DNA of 64,000 bases from a virus, in IMG/VR virus record IMGVR_UViG_3300050120_000065, positions 1 through 64,000 of that record; one strand, 5' to 3'. The notes under the pieces were generated by a model. It worked only from the letters and a program-made list of their open reading frames with translations. It made no database searches and had not been told where the DNA came from. Below are positions 7,818 through 59,661 of this stretch, in pieces. The translations under genes and the position numbers were made by a program. Numbering within the stretch: the first letter of the stretch is position 1; each line of letters opens with the position of its first letter.

Positions 7818-9409
7818 GCAGACCTATTAGCGATAGCCGCGAGGCGTTTGAGCGAGAATTAGTAAGGCGCGTACCAAATGCGCAGCTTCAATTGCGTGAC
7901 GCCGATGACGAAGTGCGCCCTGGCGAATACGAGCATGCCACGCATGAGTTCGCATGGCAGATGTGGCAAGCACAAGCAGCTATCGCCCACAAGAGCGATG
8001 GGGCTGTGCCTGTCGATGGTTTTGTCGATATCGTGTTCGACGCTCCGCCCGGGCCTACCTCAGGGCGATTCATCGAAGTTGAGAACGATAAGGGCGAGTC
8101 GATCAGCTTTGGCGAATGGGTCCGCAGACCAGATGGATATTGGGCGCTTCGCTTCACTGCGCCCGTCGCTGTGCCGGTAGATGCGAGCCCGTCATTCGAT
8201 CCTCAATCGCTTCTCAACAAAGCCACGTCGGACGCGCTATCTCGGCTGCATGCGCTGGGCCAGAGTCGCGGCTATCACAGCGGCTGGGATGCGATTCTGG
8301 CTGCGCCGAAGAAAGAGCCGCCGCCTGATGTGGAATCGGCTGACTCCATTCGTTCCGACCTTGAAGGTGAGTTTGTTCCGGTATTTCCTGAGTTGTCTGG
8401 TGCCGCCCCCGCGCCCCATAGCGGCGGTTCAGTATCGGCCCGCGAAGATGCTCAACGTGAACGCATGAAAGAGCGCTTCGCTGATCGCGTCAAGTCGCCT
8501 GCAACGGCTGATTTCGACTTGCCTGCGCCAAACGATGCCGCGCCCCATAGCGGTGAGGCTGCAACCGTAGAGACGGACGCGAAACCGTACAAGAAAGAGC
8601 CGATCACCAAAGAGTGGTGCATGAACATGGCGCACCTTGAAGGCGAAAGCGAAATCGGCGCGTGTGATCCGGCCAAATATCCAGCTTCGCAATTACAAAT
8701 CTGCACCAGTTTTAAGGATGGCAAGGCAGTCTTTGTGATTGTGCGCAGGACGTCCGCTCAGCACAGCGTCATCACGGACATGGGCGATTCTTTCGCTAGC
8801 CGTTCTCTTGCGGAATCAGCGCTCGCGAAACTAAGCGGAAAACCAGTCCCTGATGGAACGTTCGCCTGCCCGATATGCGGCAAAGACACGCCCCACGAGC
8901 ATTCTAGCGCCGAAGTGGCCCAGCATCGAATCGACCGCGCGGGAAGCAAGCAAGCGCCTATCGGTGAGGCTGGGGGAGTGGTGGCAAGCAGCTTGCCACA
9001 GCCGGTTCTGGATGCCCTGCGCTTCTATGCCAACGGCCATCACTTCGCAATCGATAGCGACGAATTCGATACCGTGAGCGGCGAACCTCAGAATTGGCAG
9101 CACAGCCAGCGCGACGACGATATCACCTGTATCGAGGATGGCTCTATCGCTAAATGGGCACTTACTGGCGACCTGGTGGCGGGCGAGGATGAACCATCGC
9201 CGCCTGTTCCTGGCGAAGTCTATGCTGCCGCCCAGCCGCAAGCAGCGCCGAGCGGGCTGAGTGATGCGGATATCGACATGCGCCTCGATGCCGTACTGCG
9301 ATCATCCGGCTCGGCGCTGCGCCATTACAGCATGCAGAAATCACTGGATGACATGCGAACGGCGATGCGCTGGGCTCTCACTGCGCCGCAAACCGGGAGC
9401 GGATCGTGA
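7814..9409 (+). CDS. Large multidomain hypothetical protein with internal repeats
   Basis: This 531-residue protein starts at ATG 7814 after AAAGGAACAATC; the longer frame from 7754 lacks a site. It appears assembled from modules. One N-terminal helical unit (SREAFERELVRRVPN, residues 8-22) is followed by short blocks joined by Ala/Pro linkers, each with a similar APHSG(E/G) motif (about 196, 247). Other segments include a zinc-like FACPICGKDTPHEHSS near 355 and a C-terminal ADIDMRLDAVLRSSGSALRHYSM helix region. The pattern suggests accretion of small early-gene products into one chain. Function unknown. Confidence 0.6.
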   Translation: MSRPISDSREAFERELVRRVPNAQLQLRDADDEVRPGEYEHATHEFAWQMWQAQAAIAHKSDGAVPVDGFVDIVFDAPPGPTSGRFIEVENDKGESISFGEWVRRPDGYWALRFTAPVAVPVDASPSFDPQSLLNKATSDALSRLHALGQSRGYHSGWDAILAAPKKEPPPDVESADSIRSDLEGEFVPVFPELSGAAPAPHSGGSVSAREDAQRERMKERFADRVKSPATADFDLPAPNDAAPHSGEAATVETDAKPYKKEPITKEWCMNMAHLEGESEIGACDPAKYPASQLQICTSFKDGKAVFVIVRRTSAQHSVITDMGDSFASRSLAESALAKLSGKPVPDGTFACPICGKDTPHEHSSAEVAQHRIDRAGSKQAPIGEAGGVVASSLPQPVLDALRFYANGHHFAIDSDEFDTVSGEPQNWQHSQRDDDITCIEDGSIAKWALTGDLVAGEDEPSPPVPGEVYAAAQPQAAPSGLSDADIDMRLDAVLRSSGSALRHYSMQKSLDDMRTAMRWALTAPQTGSGS

Positions 9410-9930
9410 GCGACGTAGCCGAAAAGACAATTCTCGACCCGTGCTGCGGTGGACGAATGATGTGGCTTGACCGCCAGCACCCGAGCGTGATCTTTGGCGA
9501 CCAGCGTCACGAGGTGCTGACCGTTACTGACCGCTCGCATGGTAACGACAGCGGCACGCGCACGCTCCGCATTGAGCCTGACGTGATGCTGGATTTCCGT
9601 GCTTTGCCGTATTCGGACGGCGCTTTCAAGCTGGTTTCGTTCGATCCGCCGCATTTGGTCCGCGCAGGGGCCAAGAGCTGGTTGGCAGCCAAATATGGGC
9701 AACTCGGTCCCGACTGGCGTGATGACCTGCGCCGTGGCTTCGCAGAGTGCTTTCGCGTGCTCTCCGTGGATGGCGTTTTGATCTTCAAGTGGAATGAAAC
9801 GCAGATCAAGGTGAGTGAGGTTTTGGCGCTGGCTGAGGTCAAGCCGCTCTTTGGCCATCTAAGCGGCCGCAAAGGGCTCACACACTGGCTCGTCTTTATG
9901 AAGACCTCTGCGCATGGAGATAAATCATGA
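9406..9930 (+). CDS. SAM-dependent methyltransferase-like protein
   Basis: This is a 174-residue class I methyltransferase-like protein. Motif I is ILDPCCGGRMMW (residues 9-20), and motif IV appears as FDPPH (about 83-87) in the place of the DPPY of N6-adenine/N4-cytosine enzymes. The C-terminal HWLVFMK is the usual last strand. No separate target recognition domain is visible. DPPH is seen in several phage proteins of this kind; the substrate (DNA, RNA or protein) is not settled. GTG start overlaps the previous TGA. Confidence 0.7.
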   Translation: MSDVAEKTILDPCCGGRMMWLDRQHPSVIFGDQRHEVLTVTDRSHGNDSGTRTLRIEPDVMLDFRALPYSDGAFKLVSFDPPHLVRAGAKSWLAAKYGQLGPDWRDDLRRGFAECFRVLSVDGVLIFKWNETQIKVSEVLALAEVKPLFGHLSGRKGLTHWLVFMKTSAHGDKS

Positions 9931-10259: not shown

Positions 10260-10924
10260 CTTGCGATCAACAGCGATTTGAGCGAGATATCGCTCAGCAT
10301 CACATGACCATTTTCCGAGATGAAGGCACGGACCGGCACATCTCGTTCCGACAGTCAGGTAATAGCGCCTACTGGTTCGAGATTCTGACGTGGCCCGGTG
10401 CGCTGTGCATCCGTGGCGACATGGGCACATACGTGTTCTCACGCACGCCCGACATGTTCCAGTTCTTCCGCACGGGCGACCGTGGCGACCCGAGCAAGCT
10501 GTATATCAACGAAGGCTATTGGACCGAGAAGCTGATCGCCGTCGATTGCAACGGATACGGCAAAGGCAGCGCTCAAGAATTCAGTGCCGACGTTTTTAAG
10601 CGCAAGGTGATTCGCCGATTTCGCGAGTATTGCCGTGACTACGAAGTTGAGCATGATGAGCGAAAGCGCATGTGGTATTGGATTCGCTCTGACATCCTCG
10701 ATTATGCGAGTGACGGGGATTCTAGCGCGCTCAACAAAGTGCATGAGTTCAGTGACTCGGCGCACCCGCGCATCTTTGATGATTTCTGGGAAGTGAACTG
10801 CGACGTTTATACCTTCCATCTGATATGGAACCTGTACGCCATTGCATGGGCGATACGGAAGTATGACGCAGCTCGTACGCAACTTACCACGCAAGGTGAG
10901 TTGCCGGGATCGGAGGGAGTGTGA
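10256..10924 (+). CDS. Conserved hypothetical phage early protein
   Basis: This is a 222-residue protein of a type often seen in phage early regions, with the pattern ITIFRDEG-RHISFR, YWFEILTWPGALCIRGDMGTYVF, then PDMFQFFR and a tryptophan-rich C-terminal half (FHLIWNLYAIAWAI). No catalytic residues are known. It overlaps the downstream cytosine methyltransferase start. Confidence 0.65.
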   Translation: MTCDQQRFERDIAQHHMTIFRDEGTDRHISFRQSGNSAYWFEILTWPGALCIRGDMGTYVFSRTPDMFQFFRTGDRGDPSKLYINEGYWTEKLIAVDCNGYGKGSAQEFSADVFKRKVIRRFREYCRDYEVEHDERKRMWYWIRSDILDYASDGDSSALNKVHEFSDSAHPRIFDDFWEVNCDVYTFHLIWNLYAIAWAIRKYDAARTQLTTQGELPGSEGV

Positions 10925-12774
10925 GATATGGCTCGGTTTGCTCTGGAATCGAAGCGGCATCAGCCGCTTGGCACGGGCTCGGCTGGCAGGCGGCATGGTT
11001 CAGCGAAATAGAGCCATTCCCCAGCGCTGTCCTGGCGCATCACTACCCAACCGTTCCCAACTTGGGTGACATGCGCATGATCGCGCGTCGCGTCCTTACG
11101 GGAGAGGTTGAGGCACCTGACATTCTAATCGGCGGCACTCCATGCCAAGCGTTTTCAATTGCCGGCCTGCGCGAAGGGCTTGCAGACGAGCGCGGTCAAC
11201 TTACTCTTGCTTATGTGAGGCTGCTTGATGCAATTGACTATGTTCGGGAGCGAGACGGCCGCAAGCGCGCCATCGCAGGATGGGAAAATGTCCCTGGCGT
11301 CCTATCCTCCAAAGACAATGCGTTCGGCTGCTTTCTTGCGGCACTTGCCGGCGAAGATGTCGCACTCGAACCGCCAGGGAAAAAATGGGCGAACGCTGGT
11401 TGTGTGTTTGGACCCACGAGAACAGTCGCGTGGCGAGTCCTCGACGCCCAATATTTCGGAGTGGCCCAACGTCGCCGCCGTGTGTTCGTTATCGCAAGTG
11501 CTCGTAAAGGCTTCGATCCCGTCAAGGTACTTTTTGAGTTCGACGGCTTGCGCGGGGATATTGCGCCGAGCAGAGAAACGTCGCAAGACATTGCCGGCAC
11601 CGTTACAGGCGGCGCTCGCAAGCGTGGTGGATTCAGCTATGACGATTCCCCCATGTGCGCCGGCACTGTTACCGCAGCTCTTGGCGCCCGCAACGGAGTG
11701 CCCGACGGCGGCGATACGCCTGGATTCCTGCAGCCGGTAGTTTCCACCCTTGATGCGAGTTACGGCCGCTTACAGGGTTGCAGCGGCCAAGACGCCAATC
11801 ATGGGCATACGCACCTCGTGCCGGTGATGGCGTTCGGTGGAAACAATACGAGCGGGCCGATAGATATCGCAACGGCGCGTAACGCATGCGCCAGCGCCAG
11901 CGGCCGGATGGATTTCGAGACTGAAACGTTCGTCGTCGAACCGGACCGTGCGCGCTCAGTAACTCTGAGGGGGCGCGAAGGTGGCGCTACAGCCGAACTG
12001 GGAGATGAGGTAGCTGGATGCCTGCGTGCATCATCTGGAGGGGGTGACAAGCCGCACGTACTCGCGCCGATGAATCGCGAGCCGCTGCCATTCGATACCA
12101 CTCAGATAACCAGCGCGACGAATCGCTCGCAGCCCGAACACGGTGACCCGTGCCATCCGCTTGCGGCTGGTGCGCATCCGCCGGCGATCGCTTTCGATTC
12201 GCGCCAAGACCCTGTATCGAGTGAGCACATATTCGGCGCGCTTGGTTCGTCCAGTCCGCAGGCGCAAGCCGTCTGTGTAACGGGTGACATTACCCACACA
12301 TTGAAGGCCGATGGATTCGACGCGAGCGAAGACGGCACCGGGCGCGGCCAGCCGATCGTCGCCTTTCAGGATCGTTTTCGCGGCGATGACGGTCGCGGTT
12401 ACGACCGTTCGCCTCCAATGTCTGTCGAGCAAGTCGGCACGCTGGAGACGGTCAAGCCGTGGAACGTGGTGAGCCGTATGCGCGTGCGCCGGCTCACGCC
12501 AGTCGAATGCGAGCGCCTGCAGGGATTCCTTGATGACTACACGTTCATTCCTACATGGAATGGATGGCGTGCGATGGATGCCAGCGAGACCCCGGAAAGT
12601 TGCATTGCCGAGGGGCTGGAGATCCGGAGGACCAAGAAAACTGGCAAGTGGCGCGTCAAAGATGTGGATGGGCCGCGCTACAAGGCCCTGGGAAACTCCA
12701 TGGCCGTGCCATGCATGGCTTGGCTCGGTGAGCGCATTGATGCTGCTACGGCGACCATTGGAGTCGCAACATGA
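10921..12774 (+). CDS. DNA (cytosine-5) methyltransferase
   Basis: This 617-residue C5 DNA methyltransferase has motif I YGSVCSGIEAA (3-13), the catalytic motif IV GTPCQAFSIAG with the nucleophile Cys75, motif VI WENVPG (121-126), motif VIII QRRRRVF (183-189) and motif X ALGNSMAVPC near the C-terminus. The stretch between VIII and X (about 190-570) is unusually long and carries the target recognition region with many Gly/Asp-rich loops. No cognate endonuclease is adjacent, so it is an orphan enzyme that most likely protects phage DNA from host restriction. GTG start overlaps the preceding stop. Confidence 0.92.
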   Translation: MRYGSVCSGIEAASAAWHGLGWQAAWFSEIEPFPSAVLAHHYPTVPNLGDMRMIARRVLTGEVEAPDILIGGTPCQAFSIAGLREGLADERGQLTLAYVRLLDAIDYVRERDGRKRAIAGWENVPGVLSSKDNAFGCFLAALAGEDVALEPPGKKWANAGCVFGPTRTVAWRVLDAQYFGVAQRRRRVFVIASARKGFDPVKVLFEFDGLRGDIAPSRETSQDIAGTVTGGARKRGGFSYDDSPMCAGTVTAALGARNGVPDGGDTPGFLQPVVSTLDASYGRLQGCSGQDANHGHTHLVPVMAFGGNNTSGPIDIATARNACASASGRMDFETETFVVEPDRARSVTLRGREGGATAELGDEVAGCLRASSGGGDKPHVLAPMNREPLPFDTTQITSATNRSQPEHGDPCHPLAAGAHPPAIAFDSRQDPVSSEHIFGALGSSSPQAQAVCVTGDITHTLKADGFDASEDGTGRGQPIVAFQDRFRGDDGRGYDRSPPMSVEQVGTLETVKPWNVVSRMRVRRLTPVECERLQGFLDDYTFIPTWNGWRAMDASETPESCIAEGLEIRRTKKTGKWRVKDVDGPRYKALGNSMAVPCMAWLGERIDAATATIGVAT

Positions 12775-13770: not shown

Positions 13771-13803
13771 GTGGTCGCAAAAATCTATAAGGAAGGTGGA
13801 AAT

Positions 13804-14982
13804 ATGAAGCAAGTCATCAACGAGGCGGGTTCGCGCCCAATCAAAATTTGGACCGATGAAGTCGAAGAGTCGGCGCTGCAGCAGCTTAAGAACCTCGCGC
13901 GCCTGCCGTTCATCGCTGGCAATGGCGTGGCCTGTATGCCCGATGTCCACGCCGGCATCGGCGCAACGGTCGGCACTGTAATCGCCACCGACAAAGCCAT
14001 AATTCCGGCCGCAGTTGGCGTCGACATCGGCTGCGGCATGAATGCGGTTCGGTTGTCGCTGAAGGCGGGCGACTTGCCGGACTCGCTGCTCGCGATTCGC
14101 CACCAGATCGAGCGTGATGTACCGCTTGGCGCCGGCGGTGCGCATCGCGACTCGCACTCCTTCCCCGCCTGCCTGAAAGCTGAATATGAGCAGATTATCG
14201 GAAAAGCCCCGAAGCTGTTCAACAAGAATTTTGTTTCGCAGCTCGGCTCGCTCGGCAGCGGCAATCACTTCATCGAGCTGTGCATTGATGAGGCGCAGGA
14301 CGTCTGGATCATGCTGCATAGCGGTTCGCGCGGGGTCGGCAACCTGATTGGCCGCTACTTCATCGAGAAGGCAAAGAAGCGTATGGAGCAATACTTCATC
14401 ACGCTGCCCGATGGCGACCTCGCGTATTTTCCGGAGGATACCGATGATTTCAACGATTACGTCGAAGCGGTCAACTGGGCGCAAGACTACGCGCTGGAGA
14501 ATCGCCGCGTCATGATGGCCGCCGTTATTGCGGCGCTGCGCCGACATATCCCGGTCGAATTCACGATCACGCACGAAGCTGTGAATTGTCATCATAACTA
14601 TGTCGAGCGCGAAAACCACTTCGGCCGGAATTTATGGGTGACGCGCAAGGGTGCGATCCGCGCCCGCGAAGGCGACCTCGGCATCATCCCCGGTTCGATG
14701 GGCCAGAAAAGCTACATCGTCCGCGGCAAGGGGAACCCCGAATCGTACTGCTCCTGCTCGCACGGCGCCGGTCGCAGGATGAGCCGCACTCAGGCGCGCA
14801 AGACTTTCACTCTCACCGATCTGGCCGAACAGACACAGGGCGTCGAGTGTCGCAAGGATGACGCGGTGCTCGATGAAATACCCGGCGCGTACAAATCGAT
14901 CGACGAGGTAATGGCGAATCAGACTGACCTGGTCGAGGTCGTGCATACGTTAAAGCAGGTGCTCTGCGTCAAAGGCGCGTGA
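13804..14982 (+). CDS. rtcB: RtcB-family RNA ligase
   Basis: This 392-residue protein is close to the size of bacterial RtcB. It joins RNA 2',3'-cyclic phosphate or 3'-phosphate ends to 5'-OH ends using GTP and Mn2+. Family landmarks are present: MPDVHAG (45-51), GVDIGCGM with metal ligand Cys78, LGSLGSGNHFIEL, HSGSRGVGN, HNYVERE and the C-terminal SYCSCSHGAGRR with the histidine that becomes guanylylated. ATG 13804 (after GGAAGGTGGAAAT) is preferred to GTG 13771. It sits in the early operon of a phage that carries its own tRNAs, consistent with repair of tRNAs cut by host anticodon nucleases. Confidence 0.92.
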   Translation: MKQVINEAGSRPIKIWTDEVEESALQQLKNLARLPFIAGNGVACMPDVHAGIGATVGTVIATDKAIIPAAVGVDIGCGMNAVRLSLKAGDLPDSLLAIRHQIERDVPLGAGGAHRDSHSFPACLKAEYEQIIGKAPKLFNKNFVSQLGSLGSGNHFIELCIDEAQDVWIMLHSGSRGVGNLIGRYFIEKAKKRMEQYFITLPDGDLAYFPEDTDDFNDYVEAVNWAQDYALENRRVMMAAVIAALRRHIPVEFTITHEAVNCHHNYVERENHFGRNLWVTRKGAIRAREGDLGIIPGSMGQKSYIVRGKGNPESYCSCSHGAGRRMSRTQARKTFTLTDLAEQTQGVECRKDDAVLDEIPGAYKSIDEVMANQTDLVEVVHTLKQVLCVKGA

Positions 14983-45935: not shown

Positions 45936-47873
45936 TTAGCGGCCGAGGCGGTCAGCGCCGGGGAACGCTTCCAACAAGTCCGAGGACAGCGCGCTGTCGT
46001 GTGCAATGACGCGCTTGGGTTCATCGCCCGGCTTCGGCTGTGCGACCAACACAGCTTTGTAGGCACTCGGATGCACATCCTTGACATCGACCTTGAGCGT
46101 TTCGAGGGCTGCCTTGTAGACGGCTTCTGCGCTATCCATCGCGGTCAGCTTGCCGACATAGGGCTTGACGACTTCCTCGGCCTCGACGATGCCGCGCAGG
46201 CGTGCGATCGTTTTGGCTTCGACGTCGCGCGCGGTGGCATCGACAGCGAGCTTGATCGCCTTGTCCATGGCGGCTTGGCTCACGCCCTCATCTTTCTTGG
46301 CGGGAATTTCTTCTTTGTTCGCGCCATCTTTCGGGTTGGCGTTAGCGCCACCGGCGGTCTGCGGAGGCTCGTCAAGTGCGGCGGCCGGCTTTGCAGCGGC
46401 CGGTGCGCTCAATGCGGCTTGAACCTGAGCCAAATCCTCGTCGCTGATCTTGCCGCGCAGCATCGAGAGGATGGCTTCGCACTTCGGGTCGACGTCATCC
46501 ATTCCCACGTTGTCATCATCAGGCTGCTCGCCGTCGAGCTTGTCGAGCAACTGGACGATTTCACCGATGTCGGTGTCTTTCGCCAACAGCGGCTTGATTG
46601 CGGCAACGATGCCGGGCTTCTTTTCCAGCCAGTTGCTTTTCTTGACGCCAGCGAGGATCGGGTTGAGATCGGGGGGCGCCGCATCCGCAGCCATTTTCGA
46701 TGGCAGGACAGCCAACAAGGCTCCCTTGGCCATTACTGCTTTTTTGCTAAGGGACTTGCTCATACTGTTTGCTCCATTGGGTTGAAGTGACATGTCGCCG
46801 ACCATCACATCCGGCCCGGCGCGGCCTCGTGGCACCAGCGCCACATGGTTGAATTTGATGTTGCGCATCACGCCGTCGTACGCGACACCCTCATAGGTGC
46901 CCGGCGTCATGTCGGCGTCGTAGTAGTAGGCGGAGCTCAGCTCCTGCTCGGACTCGTCCTCAATCTTGCGAATCGAGGTCTGCACCGAAATGACCATCGA
47001 GTTATCGAGGTACGGTGCGTTGAATACGGCATCGGTGCCGGTGTAGCCGACCACGTTCTGTTGCTTCGGGTCGATCGGGCTGACCGGGACGTGCTCATTG
47101 AGAATCGGAATCAGATTCGCAGTGGCCGCGCCCTTGGCGATCTCATCGGGATCACGCAACAGCATGTAAATCTTGTTCGGATCCAGGCCTAGCGATTCGT
47201 GCTCGGGGATCTCGTTGCCGCGGTACGGGCAGACATTCGCCTTGCTGATGTGCGTCATCGCGACATGGAGACGCCCATCGTGGTCATAGGTGCGGACGCT
47301 GCCTTTGTCGAAGGCCAGCCGGTTGCGCGACACAAGAGCGGACGTCATGGCCTTGTCCATCGCCATATCGTTCGCCGTCTGCGTACCAAGCGCCTTCTCC
47401 ACCGTCTGCTTCACGCCGGGGTGAAGCGGTTGCGGCGGGTCCTTGAGCGTCGTCCAGCGAAAAGCTGTGTGCTCGTCCAACTGCAATTTCGGCGTGAACT
47501 TGCGAAGCACGTTCATCTTGAACGTAACGAAATCGACGCCGTCGAGATCCTCAACGCTATCCATCAGCATCAATTGACCGTACGGCAGCGCGCCGATTTC
47601 TTCTTTCGTTTCGCGCAGCGCGGTCTGTTCAGGCGTCTCGCCTTCATCCGATCGGCCGCCAGGCAAATCCCATGTCAGAGGATGGTTGGCATCGGGGCCG
47701 CGCAGCAGAAACAGAACCTCATCCTGCGGCGTCATCAGGCATATGCCGGCGCCCTTGATCTTTGCGTCGGCAGCGACAAACTCTCTGCCGACCTTCGTCG
47801 GAATGCCCAAAGTGGATTCACCCTCGGCTGCCGCGTACATCGCGCGCTGCTGGGCTTTGGTCACTGCCGGCAT
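45936..47873 (-). CDS. Nudix domain fused to DUF2213 prohead protease/scaffold
   Basis: This 645-residue protein has three parts. Residues 1-40 hold [19 protein letters not shown]. Residues 42-165 are a Nudix hydrolase domain with a full Nudix box G73-x5-E-x7-RE-T-x-EE-x-G95 (middle hydrophobic replaced by Thr). Residues 185-350 are the DUF2213 type: [69 protein letters not shown]. The rest is a helical scaffold-like tail. DUF2213 proteins act in head maturation. A Nudix domain on one is unusual; it might act on nucleotides in the capsid or host. Confidence 0.85.
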
Positions 47874-52975: not shown

Positions 52976-53051
52976 TGGCCTCAGGGGAAGGACTTGAACC
53001 TACAACGCCCTGCTCTTCGGGCAGGCGCTCTACCAATTGAGCTACCCTGAG
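52976..53051 (-). tRNA. tRNA-Phe-like (anticodon GAA), with C33
   Basis: The - strand forms a full cloverleaf: acceptor CTCAGGG/CCCTGAG, D-arm GCTC...GAGC, anticodon stem CCTGC/GCAGG with loop CCGAAGA, T-arm with one T-T mismatch, and encoded CCA. Length is 76 with CCA. The anticodon would be GAA, but position 33 is C instead of the near-universal U and the discriminator is G instead of A. It may be a non-standard or decayed tRNA. Confidence 0.75.
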
Positions 53052-53055
53052 AAAC

Positions 53056-53145
53056 TGGCGGAAAGCAAAGGGATCGAACCTTTGCGGCGCGTGAGCACCG
53101 GCTACGGCTTAGCAAGCCGACCCATTACCACTCTGGCAGCCTTCC
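53056..53145 (-). tRNA. tRNA-Ser (anticodon GCT)
   Basis: The - strand folds as a class II tRNA of 90 bases including CCA. Acceptor GGAAGGC/GCTTTCC has one G-T pair; D-arm CCA...TGG; anticodon loop TTGCTAA with GCT; long variable arm; T-loop TTCGATC; discriminator G. All key features are intact. It would read AGC/AGU codons. Confidence 0.9.
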
Positions 53146-53150
53146 ATGTT

Positions 53151-53236
53151 TGGCGGAAGATGAAGGAATCGAACCATCAACCATCCCTGATTGCCACGGT
53201 TTTCAAGACCGCTTTGCGCCCTGCGCGGCATCTTCC
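53151..53236 (-). tRNA. tRNA-Ser (anticodon TGA), irregular D-arm
   Basis: The - strand has acceptor GGAAGAT/ATCTTCC, anticodon loop CTTGAAA with TGA, long variable arm, T-loop TTCGATT, discriminator G and CCA. The D-arm region is short of two bases relative to usual serine tRNAs and position 8 is G, so function is not certain. It would read UCA/UCG. Confidence 0.75.
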
Positions 53237-57019: not shown

Positions 57020-57234
57020 CGCGCCACCACGCTATAAAGCCATGCGCCGGTCGCAACGGCGGCGATAATCACGAGAACAATCGCCATCGGCGCCCACAGC
57101 GGCGCAGTCACCCACCACCACGACCAAGACGCCACCACTGTGACGCCGAACAGCTTGAGCGCCAGGAAGAGAATGAAGACCAAACCGCACAAGCCAATTC
57201 CGCCCGATTGAGCGCTTTCGTTATTGCTAGACAT
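57016..57234 (-). CDS. Membrane protein, Fragile-X-F-like (paralogue)
   Basis: This 72-residue protein has a polar start, a hydrophobic pair GLCGLVFILFLALKLFGVT, VVASWSWWWVTAPLW and a longer last span (APMAIVLVIIAAVATGAWLYSV). It shares the middle with 56521-56679. The pair points to a local duplication. Confidence 0.6.
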   Translation of the reverse strand: MSSNNESAQSGGIGLCGLVFILFLALKLFGVTVVASWSWWWVTAPLWAPMAIVLVIIAAVATGAWLYSVVAR

Positions 57235-57832
57235 ATGATTCCTCCAGTTGATTGACCGACGCCCTCTTAAGATCCCGAGTCCTCGCCCGGTAGTAAGCCT
57301 TCATTTCCAATATCTCCGCCAGGGTGAGTTTCAGCGGCGGATGGTCTTTCTCCAATTCCTCGACCGCCTCCAAACCGATTCGCTTGATGAGGTTGATGCG
57401 ATAAGAAATCGGCGAGCCATGCTGGTACAGATTGCATTGTCGACATTGGAGCCAGCAATTATTTGGCATGAAGCGGGTGGCGGGGCTCGACCCAACAGAT
57501 CGGTAATGCCCGGCTTGCATATCCTGGCCAAACCGGCCACACGAGATGCACGGCTTACCCGCGTCTCTTGCGCGCACCCACGCGTTAAACGCCGTCTGCA
57601 ACTCCTTCAAATGCGCGCCGCGTGTCTTCGCCTTCTCCAGTGCCTCGCGCAGCGACTTACGCTCCGCCTTATTCGCTCTCGCCGCTTTCTGCGCTGCAAG
57701 CCTCTTCGCGTGTTCGGTTGCGCAAGTGACCCCGCAGACTTTTTGCATGGTGCGCGATGGCTGAAATACGTCGCGACACTGGGCGCAGCGCTTGGGTTTG
57801 AGCGTGTCGCGGGTCATGGGGGTGCGCTTCAT
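57227..57832 (-). CDS. ninG: NinG/Rap-like recombination protein
   Basis: This 201-residue protein carries the NinG layout: RCAQCRDVFQPSRTMQKVCGVTCA at the start, a charged helix (RANKAERKSLREALEKAKTR), FNAWVRARDAGKPCISCGRF with QAGHYRS and CWLQCRQCNLYQHGS. In lambda Rap/NinG acts on recombination junctions together with Red. ATG overlaps the DpdA-like stop. Confidence 0.9.
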   Translation of the reverse strand: MKRTPMTRDTLKPKRCAQCRDVFQPSRTMQKVCGVTCATEHAKRLAAQKAARANKAERKSLREALEKAKTRGAHLKELQTAFNAWVRARDAGKPCISCGRFGQDMQAGHYRSVGSSPATRFMPNNCWLQCRQCNLYQHGSPISYRINLIKRIGLEAVEELEKDHPPLKLTLAEILEMKAYYRARTRDLKRASVNQLEESYV

Positions 57833-58593
57833 GATCCGCACCGCACAAGGCTGAATGGCAACTGAATTTGGGCGTGCCCTCTAACCCAAAATGTGGGCGA
57901 CTGGTGCGATTCGATCCGCTCACGCATAACCATGGCTCTAGACTCTTTGGTCGCTGGCGTGTAGGTCCCGCGCCAAGCTGAATCGATGCCGATGTTCTGA
58001 GCGATGTTCGTGCTGTCTGCCGTGGCGAATGGGAATCGCGTGAAAACCCGCCAGTCCAGCATCCGCAGGCCATGGATCTTACAAATTGGGCGGCCCGATT
58101 CGTCGCATAGCACGTCCATTGCCTCGACCATCCGGCCTTCCCATATCTCGCTTCCGATCACGGCGTACTCCGCCGAGCTGCCGATGCAGATGCGGGGGAA
58201 TTGGCTCGCGAGACGGCGCAGACGATCAAGGCTTTCATGCATGTGCCACACGGGCGCGCCGACCCAAACCGGGAATCCCTGCGCCAACCACTCATCAATC
58301 AGCGCGTCGTTTGCGGACTCGTCTCCATCAATAACGTCCGGAATTACGGCAAAGTCGAATGAAGGGTAATGGCACAACTCAGAGACCCACGCGTAATACT
58401 GCGACCAGTCGGTGATCGGCTCGCCGCTGCGCCATGCCGAGAAGGCTCCATTGTCGAGAGCAAATGTCTGGCAGATATCGAGAACGAGCCCTAGCTGATC
58501 TGGGTACCTAAACGAAATAAATGCATGGCCTCCGCCCACGGCACGCGCAGCCGCCGTTGCGGGGGTGATTGGAAGTCCGTGGTAATGGATCAT
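57829..58593 (-). CDS. DpdA/TGT-like DNA or RNA guanine transglycosylase
   Basis: This 254-residue protein starts at ATG 58593 overlapping the queD stop. It has a TIM-barrel type pattern: FALDNGAFSAW (44-54, Asp47), FAVIPDVIDGDESAN (Asp86), RICIGSSAEYAVIGS, KIHGLRML and PFATADSTN (Asp193). These match from memory the TGT/DpdA superfamily, in which two Asp residues exchange guanine for a 7-deazaguanine. In phages DpdA puts preQ0 or related bases into DNA and blocks restriction. The neighbouring QueD-like gene supports that reading. Other enzymes of this barrel are possible. Confidence 0.6.
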   Translation of the reverse strand: MIHYHGLPITPATAAARAVGGGHAFISFRYPDQLGLVLDICQTFALDNGAFSAWRSGEPITDWSQYYAWVSELCHYPSFDFAVIPDVIDGDESANDALIDEWLAQGFPVWVGAPVWHMHESLDRLRRLASQFPRICIGSSAEYAVIGSEIWEGRMVEAMDVLCDESGRPICKIHGLRMLDWRVFTRFPFATADSTNIAQNIGIDSAWRGTYTPATKESRAMVMRERIESHQSPTFWVRGHAQIQLPFSLVRCGS

Positions 58594-59009
58594 TGCGGAC
58601 CCACTATCAAGCGGCACTTATCGCCGGCCGCTCGGGATACAGTTACCGCATGCACCGGGATAGACTCGCTCGCCTTCGTGGCGATGAATTCACAGAGGTT
58701 TTCAAGCGTCGCCGGCCCAAGATCCTGAACCTCATCGAGAAACTGATGGTCGAGATATTCTAGAATCTTGGCGACGATGCCGCGCAGCACAAACAGATCC
58801 ACGACGAGCGGGCCTACCTTCCCAGGTCGGGCGAACTCGATCATTCCGCTTTCGCCCTTCGTGCCGCGAATCGTTATTTCGGCCTGATACGTGTGCCCAT
58901 GGATGCGCGCGCTCGATTCAAATTCGGCGAGTGGGACAGTCCGGTGCAAGGTGTGCGCAGCCTCAAAGATGAAAGATTGCGACAACTCGAAAATTGCTGT
59001 TGTGGTCAT
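58590..59009 (-). CDS. QueD/PTPS-like protein without the usual catalytic Cys
   Basis: This 139-residue protein has the PTPS/QueD layout: SFIFEAAH (zinc His19), IHGHTYQAE (zinc His37 and His39), LDHQFLDEV (Asp87, His88) and ATLENLCEFI. In E. coli QueD a Cys lies four residues before the HGH motif; here that position is Ser33. The C-terminal Glu of the family (VKET) is also replaced (VSRA). QueD makes carboxytetrahydropterin on the way to preQ0. The fold is clear; the activity is not. Start at ATG 59009 overlaps the previous stop. Confidence 0.85.
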   Translation of the reverse strand: MTTTAIFELSQSFIFEAAHTLHRTVPLAEFESSARIHGHTYQAEITIRGTKGESGMIEFARPGKVGPLVVDLFVLRGIVAKILEYLDHQFLDEVQDLGPATLENLCEFIATKASESIPVHAVTVSRAAGDKCRLIVGPQ

Positions 59010-59455
59010 GCCGCACCACCCGCCTTCTGCCCGAACTGCAACCACTTCGAAAATGGGATGCGAATTTCTCGATGAAATATGGCCTCGGCTGCTTCGTCAT
59101 GGTCCAATTCGGCGCAAGATTCAACCCCGCATACCGTTCGGATCATTGCGGCCGCATCTTCTTCGGTGTAGCACGACCATTTCAAACTTCGACACCATTC
59201 CCAAAACTTCGGATCATTGCGCCACAGGCCGGTTAGTTTGGCGAGCGCACCCCCTTTCGGCTTTTCTTCGGCCGGCGCACGCGTCTCGAAGTCGGCCAGC
59301 AACGGCGCAAGCGCCACCGGCATATCGATCTCGCCGAAGCTCGCGAAGAATTCCTTGCGGAAGCGCGGGTCTATGTCGATCGACACCCTTATCGTTCCGT
59401 CGGCCATCTCTTTGAATGAGCGACGCGTACCGCTGATTGCTTGGATTTCACTCAT
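59006..59455 (-). CDS. Conserved early phage protein
   Basis: This 149-residue protein starts SEIQAISGTRRSFKEMADGT after AGGAGAG. It carries a recurrent phage pattern: DPRFRKEFFASFGEIDMPVALAPL and a C-terminal FWEWCRSLKWSC...AAAMIRTVCGVESCAELDHDEAAEAIFHREIRIPFSKW. This pattern occurs in many nin-type regions, function unknown. Confidence 0.7.
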   Translation of the reverse strand: MSEIQAISGTRRSFKEMADGTIRVSIDIDPRFRKEFFASFGEIDMPVALAPLLADFETRAPAEEKPKGGALAKLTGLWRNDPKFWEWCRSLKWSCYTEEDAAAMIRTVCGVESCAELDHDEAAEAIFHREIRIPFSKWLQFGQKAGGAA

Positions 59456-59661
59456 TTCGGCTCTCCTGTGATCAGCCAACCGATATTCGTGCCTGGCAGC
59501 GCGTTGATAATCACGGTCAAGGTGTCCAGTCCTGGCTTGCGCTGGCCGGTCAGAATGTGAGAAAGGTTCGGTAGCGAAAATCCCGTCCGCCGCGCGAATT
59601 CGCTCAGCGAGATTTCCTGATGCTGCGTGATCGCAACGCGAAGACGATTCCCGAAGCTCAT
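59452..59661 (-). CDS. XRE-type HTH regulator
   Basis: This 69-residue protein starts SFGNRLRVAITQHQEISLSEFARRTGFSLPNLSHILTGQRKPG, a typical Cro/C1-type HTH. It ends with a short GWLITG tail. Coupled at both ends. It is not the main repressor (too short, inside the operon) but may modulate it. Confidence 0.75.
   Translation of the reverse strand: MSFGNRLRVAITQHQEISLSEFARRTGFSLPNLSHILTGQRKPGLDTLTVIINALPGTNIGWLITGEPK

Follow-up and report, generated by a model that had tools for sequence, protein, structure and literature searches.

A QueD-type gene adjoins dpdA in a temperate phage and in related viral contigs, suggesting a host-dependent module for 7-deazaguanine DNA modification

Modification of phage DNA with 7-deazaguanines is already known, both from phages that carry a complete preQ0 pathway together with DpdA and from phages that carry DpdA alone. 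Lone DpdA made up the largest class in a 2019 survey of phage 7-deazaguanine genes (PMC6884629), and these genes are among the least understood, with both the source of the base and the usefulness of the DNA modification in question. Mass spectrometry found dADG at ~0.02% of guanines in the virion DNA of Salmonella phage 7-11 (PMC6884629) and at 0.13% of guanines in that of Pantoea phage MED16, where the modification gave little restriction resistance (PMC8306585). In contrast to these two phages, which have no QueD, the phage described here carries a QueD-type gene that overlaps its dpdA.

The window, by which we mean the whole 64,000-nucleotide stretch analysed, comes from a virus record of 65,741 bases that may be a fragment. 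Integrase, tail sheath, baseplate and terminase genes identify the carrier as a temperate contractile-tailed phage, and the phage genes point to Pseudomonadota as the host. The preliminary description had placed a QueD-like and a DpdA/TGT-like gene at 57829–59009, and the sequence bears this out, with both ORFs on the minus strand: the first (58590–59009) encodes a 139-aa QueD-type PTPS-fold protein of a Ser33/Arg126 subtype, assigned by PF01242 and a QueD fold, and the second (57829–58593) encodes a predicted DpdA/TGT-like DNA guanine transglycosylase of 254 aa, assigned by PHROG 887 and a predicted TGT fold. The reported ATGA overlap of the two genes was also evident (58590–58593, minus strand), with queD ending in ...CAATGA and dpdA beginning with ATGATC.... 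This overlap is not unique in the window. The gene immediately upstream (59006–59479, minus strand; 157 aa; PHROG 19763, E = 1e-27) shares an ATGA with queD, and dpdA shares one with the downstream gene for NinG, of a recombination endonuclease family (57227–57841, minus strand; PF05766, E = 1e-54), so the ATGA here marks an operon and not a special pair. Chance proximity of queD and dpdA was nevertheless ruled out by low dN/dS (~0.03–0.09, for the pairs in which it was computable) and by the recurrence of the pair in dozens of contigs. We also looked around the two genes for RNA elements such as a preQ1 riboswitch and found none, tRNAs being the only RNA features.

Several other features of the window are recorded here as separate observations. 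An RtcB RNA ligase gene lies at 13771–14982 (plus strand; PF01139, E = 1.7e-128), and the phage also has three tRNAs (Phe, Ser and Ser; 52976–53236, minus strand). A single 645-aa ORF at 45936–47873 (minus strand) joins a Nudix domain (aa 40–157) to a DUF2213/head maturation protease. The C5-cytosine methyltransferase-like ORF at 10921–12774 (plus strand) seemingly holds at least ~240 extra residues between its two halves, and a further DNA methyltransferase is located at 9406–9930.

The 254-aa protein had no sequence match in Pfam, NCBIfam or the PDB; its match was PHROG 887, annotated as "queuine tRNA-ribosyltransferase" (E = 1.1e-72). When an AlphaFold model built from 33 input sequences (pLDDT 90) was submitted to Foldseek, TGT ranked second and third among TIM barrels (E ~3e-3). 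Foldseek by itself could not tell TGT from the remaining TIM barrels, whereas VIA-align could. The structural comparison with TGT/DpdA that the preliminary description had proposed came out in favour of its assignment, the best 50 rows of the re-alignment to the PDB consisting only of TGTs and the TGT-like Cap10 (Z 13.9–15.6), with an archaeosine TGT at the top (Z 15.6; rmsd 5.0 over 235 residues). The DpdA motifs D47-N-G-A-F, H174-G-L-R and D193-S-T-N are conserved, and D47, H174 and D193 are invariant in the 33-sequence alignment. H174 aligns with His196 of 9g DpdA, the residue by which Hutinet et al. distinguish DpdA from DpdA2 (PMC6884629); D47 and D193 are common to 9g DpdA, and their putative catalytic roles are drawn from TGT. 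The protein is similar to 9g DpdA (phmmer E = 1.1e-5; family profile E = 7.8e-10) and homologous to the DpdAs of MED16 (E = 1.6e-50) and 7-11 (E = 5e-37). We conclude that 57829–58593 encodes a TGT-fold protein of the phage DpdA family (9g-type, DpdA1), which probably swaps a 7-deazaguanine-type base into DNA.

The 139-aa protein matched PF01242 well above the cut-off (70.7 vs. 22.4 bits; E = 1.4e-19), and Foldseek returned the QueD/PTPS proteins of E. coli and P. aeruginosa (E ~1e-9 to 2e-10). Residues were compared with those of E. coli QueD. The zinc ligands H19, H37 and H39 and the Asp-His pair D87-H88 are kept and are invariant in an alignment of the subtype. Canonical QueD enzymes use a catalytic Cys and a catalytic Glu, both thought to be essential; here these positions are occupied by Ser33 and Arg126, which are likewise invariant across the subfamily. 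Where the published QueD (PTPS-I) signature is CxxxHGH (PMC5041015), the window QueD reads SxxIHGH, and it also misses the cut-off of the NCBIfam QueD equivalog TIGR03367 (54.8 vs. 89.25 bits), so it is not filed as a canonical PTPS-I. The chromosomal and viral relatives tested fell below the same cut-off (68–81 bits). We considered a dead or decayed queD copy and rejected it on the grounds of the invariant Ser33 and Arg126, the low dN/dS and the position of the subtype as sole QueD candidate in several bacteria. The Ser/Arg QueD is a coherent subfamily. We found no description of it in the open literature, to which our search was confined, and an earlier description, for instance in subscription papers, is possible.

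The best 80 bacterial relatives of the window QueD, mostly from Burkholderiales, carry the same Ser/Arg subtype, which appears typical of Burkholderiales chromosomes. It adjoins queE in 67 of these 80 chromosomal loci, and a bacterial DpdA lies near it in seven. In nine bacterial genomes that we tested, all of which have queC, queA and queF, the Ser/Arg QueD was the only PTPS-family match. Since it is the sole PTPS in these genomes and so often sits beside queE, the subtype most likely fills the QueD step, and because bacterial genomes have it in the place of QueD, the missing Cys and Glu do not overturn the QueD assignment. Ser/Arg QueD thus probably functions as QueD, making a 7-deazaguanine precursor. 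In a tree based on a short alignment, the window QueD and other phage copies grouped with Aquabacterium-type chromosomal enzymes (SH-aLRT 99). A search for the host among 399 genomes of Aquabacterium's order returned no DpdA match, but it had no positive control and therefore carries no weight. Separately, a contig filed as a human-faeces phage (L001; MT835580.1, 31192–43536) bears a bacterial-type dpd cluster with DpdA, two DpdB-like genes, QueE, a Ser/Arg QueD and QueC.

We searched IMG/VR with a QueD-only profile and kept 80 contigs, in all of which a DpdA/TGT-like gene adjoins QueD; these matches were picked by similarity, and percentages among them are not population frequencies. The partner was a PHROG 887-type DpdA in 79 of the 80, with a few DpdAs cut by the contig end, and in L097 a Ser/Arg QueD lies ahead of a TGT-like protein from another family, PHROG 1279. 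Both gene orders occur. With QueD first, 39 of 40 viral loci have a spacing of exactly –4, and with DpdA first, 45 of 52 offer a –4 start (spacing counts that include some contigs twice); at one locus (L161) the two genes are 186 bases apart. In the converse search, with DpdA only, 12 of the 80 nearest relatives had an adjacent QueD, and QueD was the commonest family upstream of DpdA (11/64). The other 68 close relatives had no adjoining QueD, although some contigs end there, which makes their unpaired status uncertain. About nine changes in the paired state are needed on the DpdA tree. The nearest relative of the window QueD (L005, 84% identical) adjoins a DpdA just 46% identical to that of the window, and the nearest DpdA relative (L010) has no QueD, indicating that the pair has been reassorted. 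In L020, DpdA is paired with a canonical Cys/Glu QueD, and in L122 and L143 QueE joins the QueD-DpdA pair. This repeated meeting of different enzyme versions is, in our view, the strongest evidence that the two proteins serve one shared pathway.

Two other gene families were seen next to DpdA. A small protein family of about 82–115 aa, whose members lie outside the window, is often encoded directly upstream of DpdA or of QueD-DpdA (L019:4660–5004, L099:5750–6001 and ~20 other DpdA loci). It has the motif F..CP.N...Y...VEHI...HE.IAD...HHHGV.IETRRG, and the two members tested had no Pfam match. Weak profile similarity to QueF, in which Cys-Pro and FHE motifs align, was found (single-comparison P = 7e-4, probability 26%). 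In four contigs (L010, L013, L070 and L087), a nucleoside 2-deoxyribosyltransferase-like gene ends at the DpdA start; that of L010 spans 1772–2143 (PF05014, E = 1e-8).

The preliminary description had noted that folE, queE and queC are missing from the window, and their absence extends further: FolE, QueE (radical SAM) and QueC had no match in the whole 65.7 kb record, which may itself be incomplete. With none of the three encoded by the phage, the host must supply them, and host supply of the remaining pathway enzymes is the best reading of the locus. QueD catalyses the first step out of the pool shared with folate synthesis, so a phage equipped with QueD and DpdA would itself cover the branch point and the base insertion and rely on its host for everything else. 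We consider it probable that the pair is a minimal, host-dependent module for 7-deazaguanine DNA modification. The analysis establishes what the genes are, their folds, their conservation, their repeated pairing, the lack of the other pathway genes in the record and the genomic role that this QueD subtype has in bacteria, whereas enzyme activity, host supply, the identity of the base, DNA as the target and protection are inferred. Host FolE would provide dihydroneopterin triphosphate, shared with folate synthesis; the phage Ser/Arg QueD would commit it to 6-carboxytetrahydropterin, raising flux into the branch; host QueE and QueC would carry this on to CDG and then preQ0; and DpdA would replace guanines of the phage DNA with preQ0 or a downstream derivative such as ADG. 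The modification might then conceal sites from nucleases whose recognition involves the guanine N7. Such a module would be expected to modify DNA only where the host possesses QueE and QueC. The proposal of 7-deazaguanine modification made in the preliminary description is supported by the TGT structural match and by the dADG in virion DNA of phages with homologous lone DpdAs. We counted against the module the QueD that has neither Cys nor Glu and does not reach the NCBIfam model, the mere traces of modified guanine in lone-DpdA phages and the 68 of 80 DpdA relatives that have no QueD beside them.

The invariant exchanges of Cys for Ser and Glu for Arg could mean a changed substrate or reaction, in which case the QueD-like protein would have a different chemistry, involving for example 7-carboxy-7-deazaguanine or another pterin, and the base inserted by DpdA would be neither preQ0 nor ADG. 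For other phages a CDG decarboxylase, DpdL, has reportedly been described, which would fit such a scheme; ACP17, examined for a protein that could serve as DpdL reference, yielded a single, divergent PTPS protein. We regard a different chemistry as distinctly improbable, given that in nine genomes with queC, queA and queF the subtype is the sole PTPS, that it usually lies beside queE and that a canonical QueD takes its place next to DpdA in L020. It is unlikely, too, that the subfamily combines the PTPS fold with a rebuilt active site that works by a Cys-independent mechanism or makes another product, placed in DNA by DpdA as an undescribed base.

The TGT fold of DpdA, the membership of QueD in the queuosine pathway and the presence of RtcB and three tRNAs on the phage would all suit a pair that alters queuosine in host tRNA and not phage DNA. 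We consider this very doubtful, since homologous phage DpdAs accompany modified DNA (PMC6884629, PMC8306585), 9g DpdA did not substitute for tgt in E. coli (PMC6884629) and the three phage tRNAs, being Phe and Ser, include none of the GUN type that carries queuosine. Because Cap10 ranks third among the structural matches of DpdA and defences based on deazaguanylation exist (PMC13329287), the pair might also interfere with host defences of this chemistry (type IV CBASS Cap9/Cap10, Qat). We give almost no credence to such interference, as the TGTs all score alike in the structural comparison, no defence link was found and QueE beside the pair in L122 and L143 points to base synthesis.

If the pair is indeed a DNA-modification module, the recurrent QueD partner suggests that phages reinforce the branch point at which the pathway leaves folate synthesis, and the two genes offer a testable system. 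The subtype itself, which escapes the current QueD equivalog model, has neither Cys nor Glu and apparently serves many Burkholderiales as their housekeeping enzyme, thereby calling into question the accepted catalytic residues of QueD.

Among the described systems, the lone-DpdA phages (7-11, of the third group of Hutinet et al. 2019, and also MED16) share with the window phage a homologous DpdA, 32–40% identical, and likewise have no FolE, QueE or QueC and depend on the host for the base. Phages with a complete preQ0 pathway and DpdA (the second group, including CAjan and Rosebush) also have QueD and DpdA in one neighbourhood, but the window phage has no FolE, QueE or QueC and its QueD is of a different subtype. 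A partial QueD-DpdA module falls outside the published phage groups of PMC6884629, although it may have been described elsewhere. The closest non-phage relatives of the window QueD are found in the QueE-QueD pairs of Aquabacterium and related Burkholderiales, where the chromosomal queD stands beside queE and not, as in the window phage, beside dpdA. Bacterial dpd clusters also bring the same Ser/Arg QueD close to DpdA, in Cupriavidus and in Pseudomonas argentinensis, whose cluster (L189) combines it with a DpdA (NF041059, E = 6e-166), a DpdB-like gene, QueC and QueE, the last three named from their sequence. The DpdA of such clusters differs from that of the window in belonging to another TGT subfamily (~436 aa) and in being accompanied by DpdB, QueC, QueE and large extra genes.
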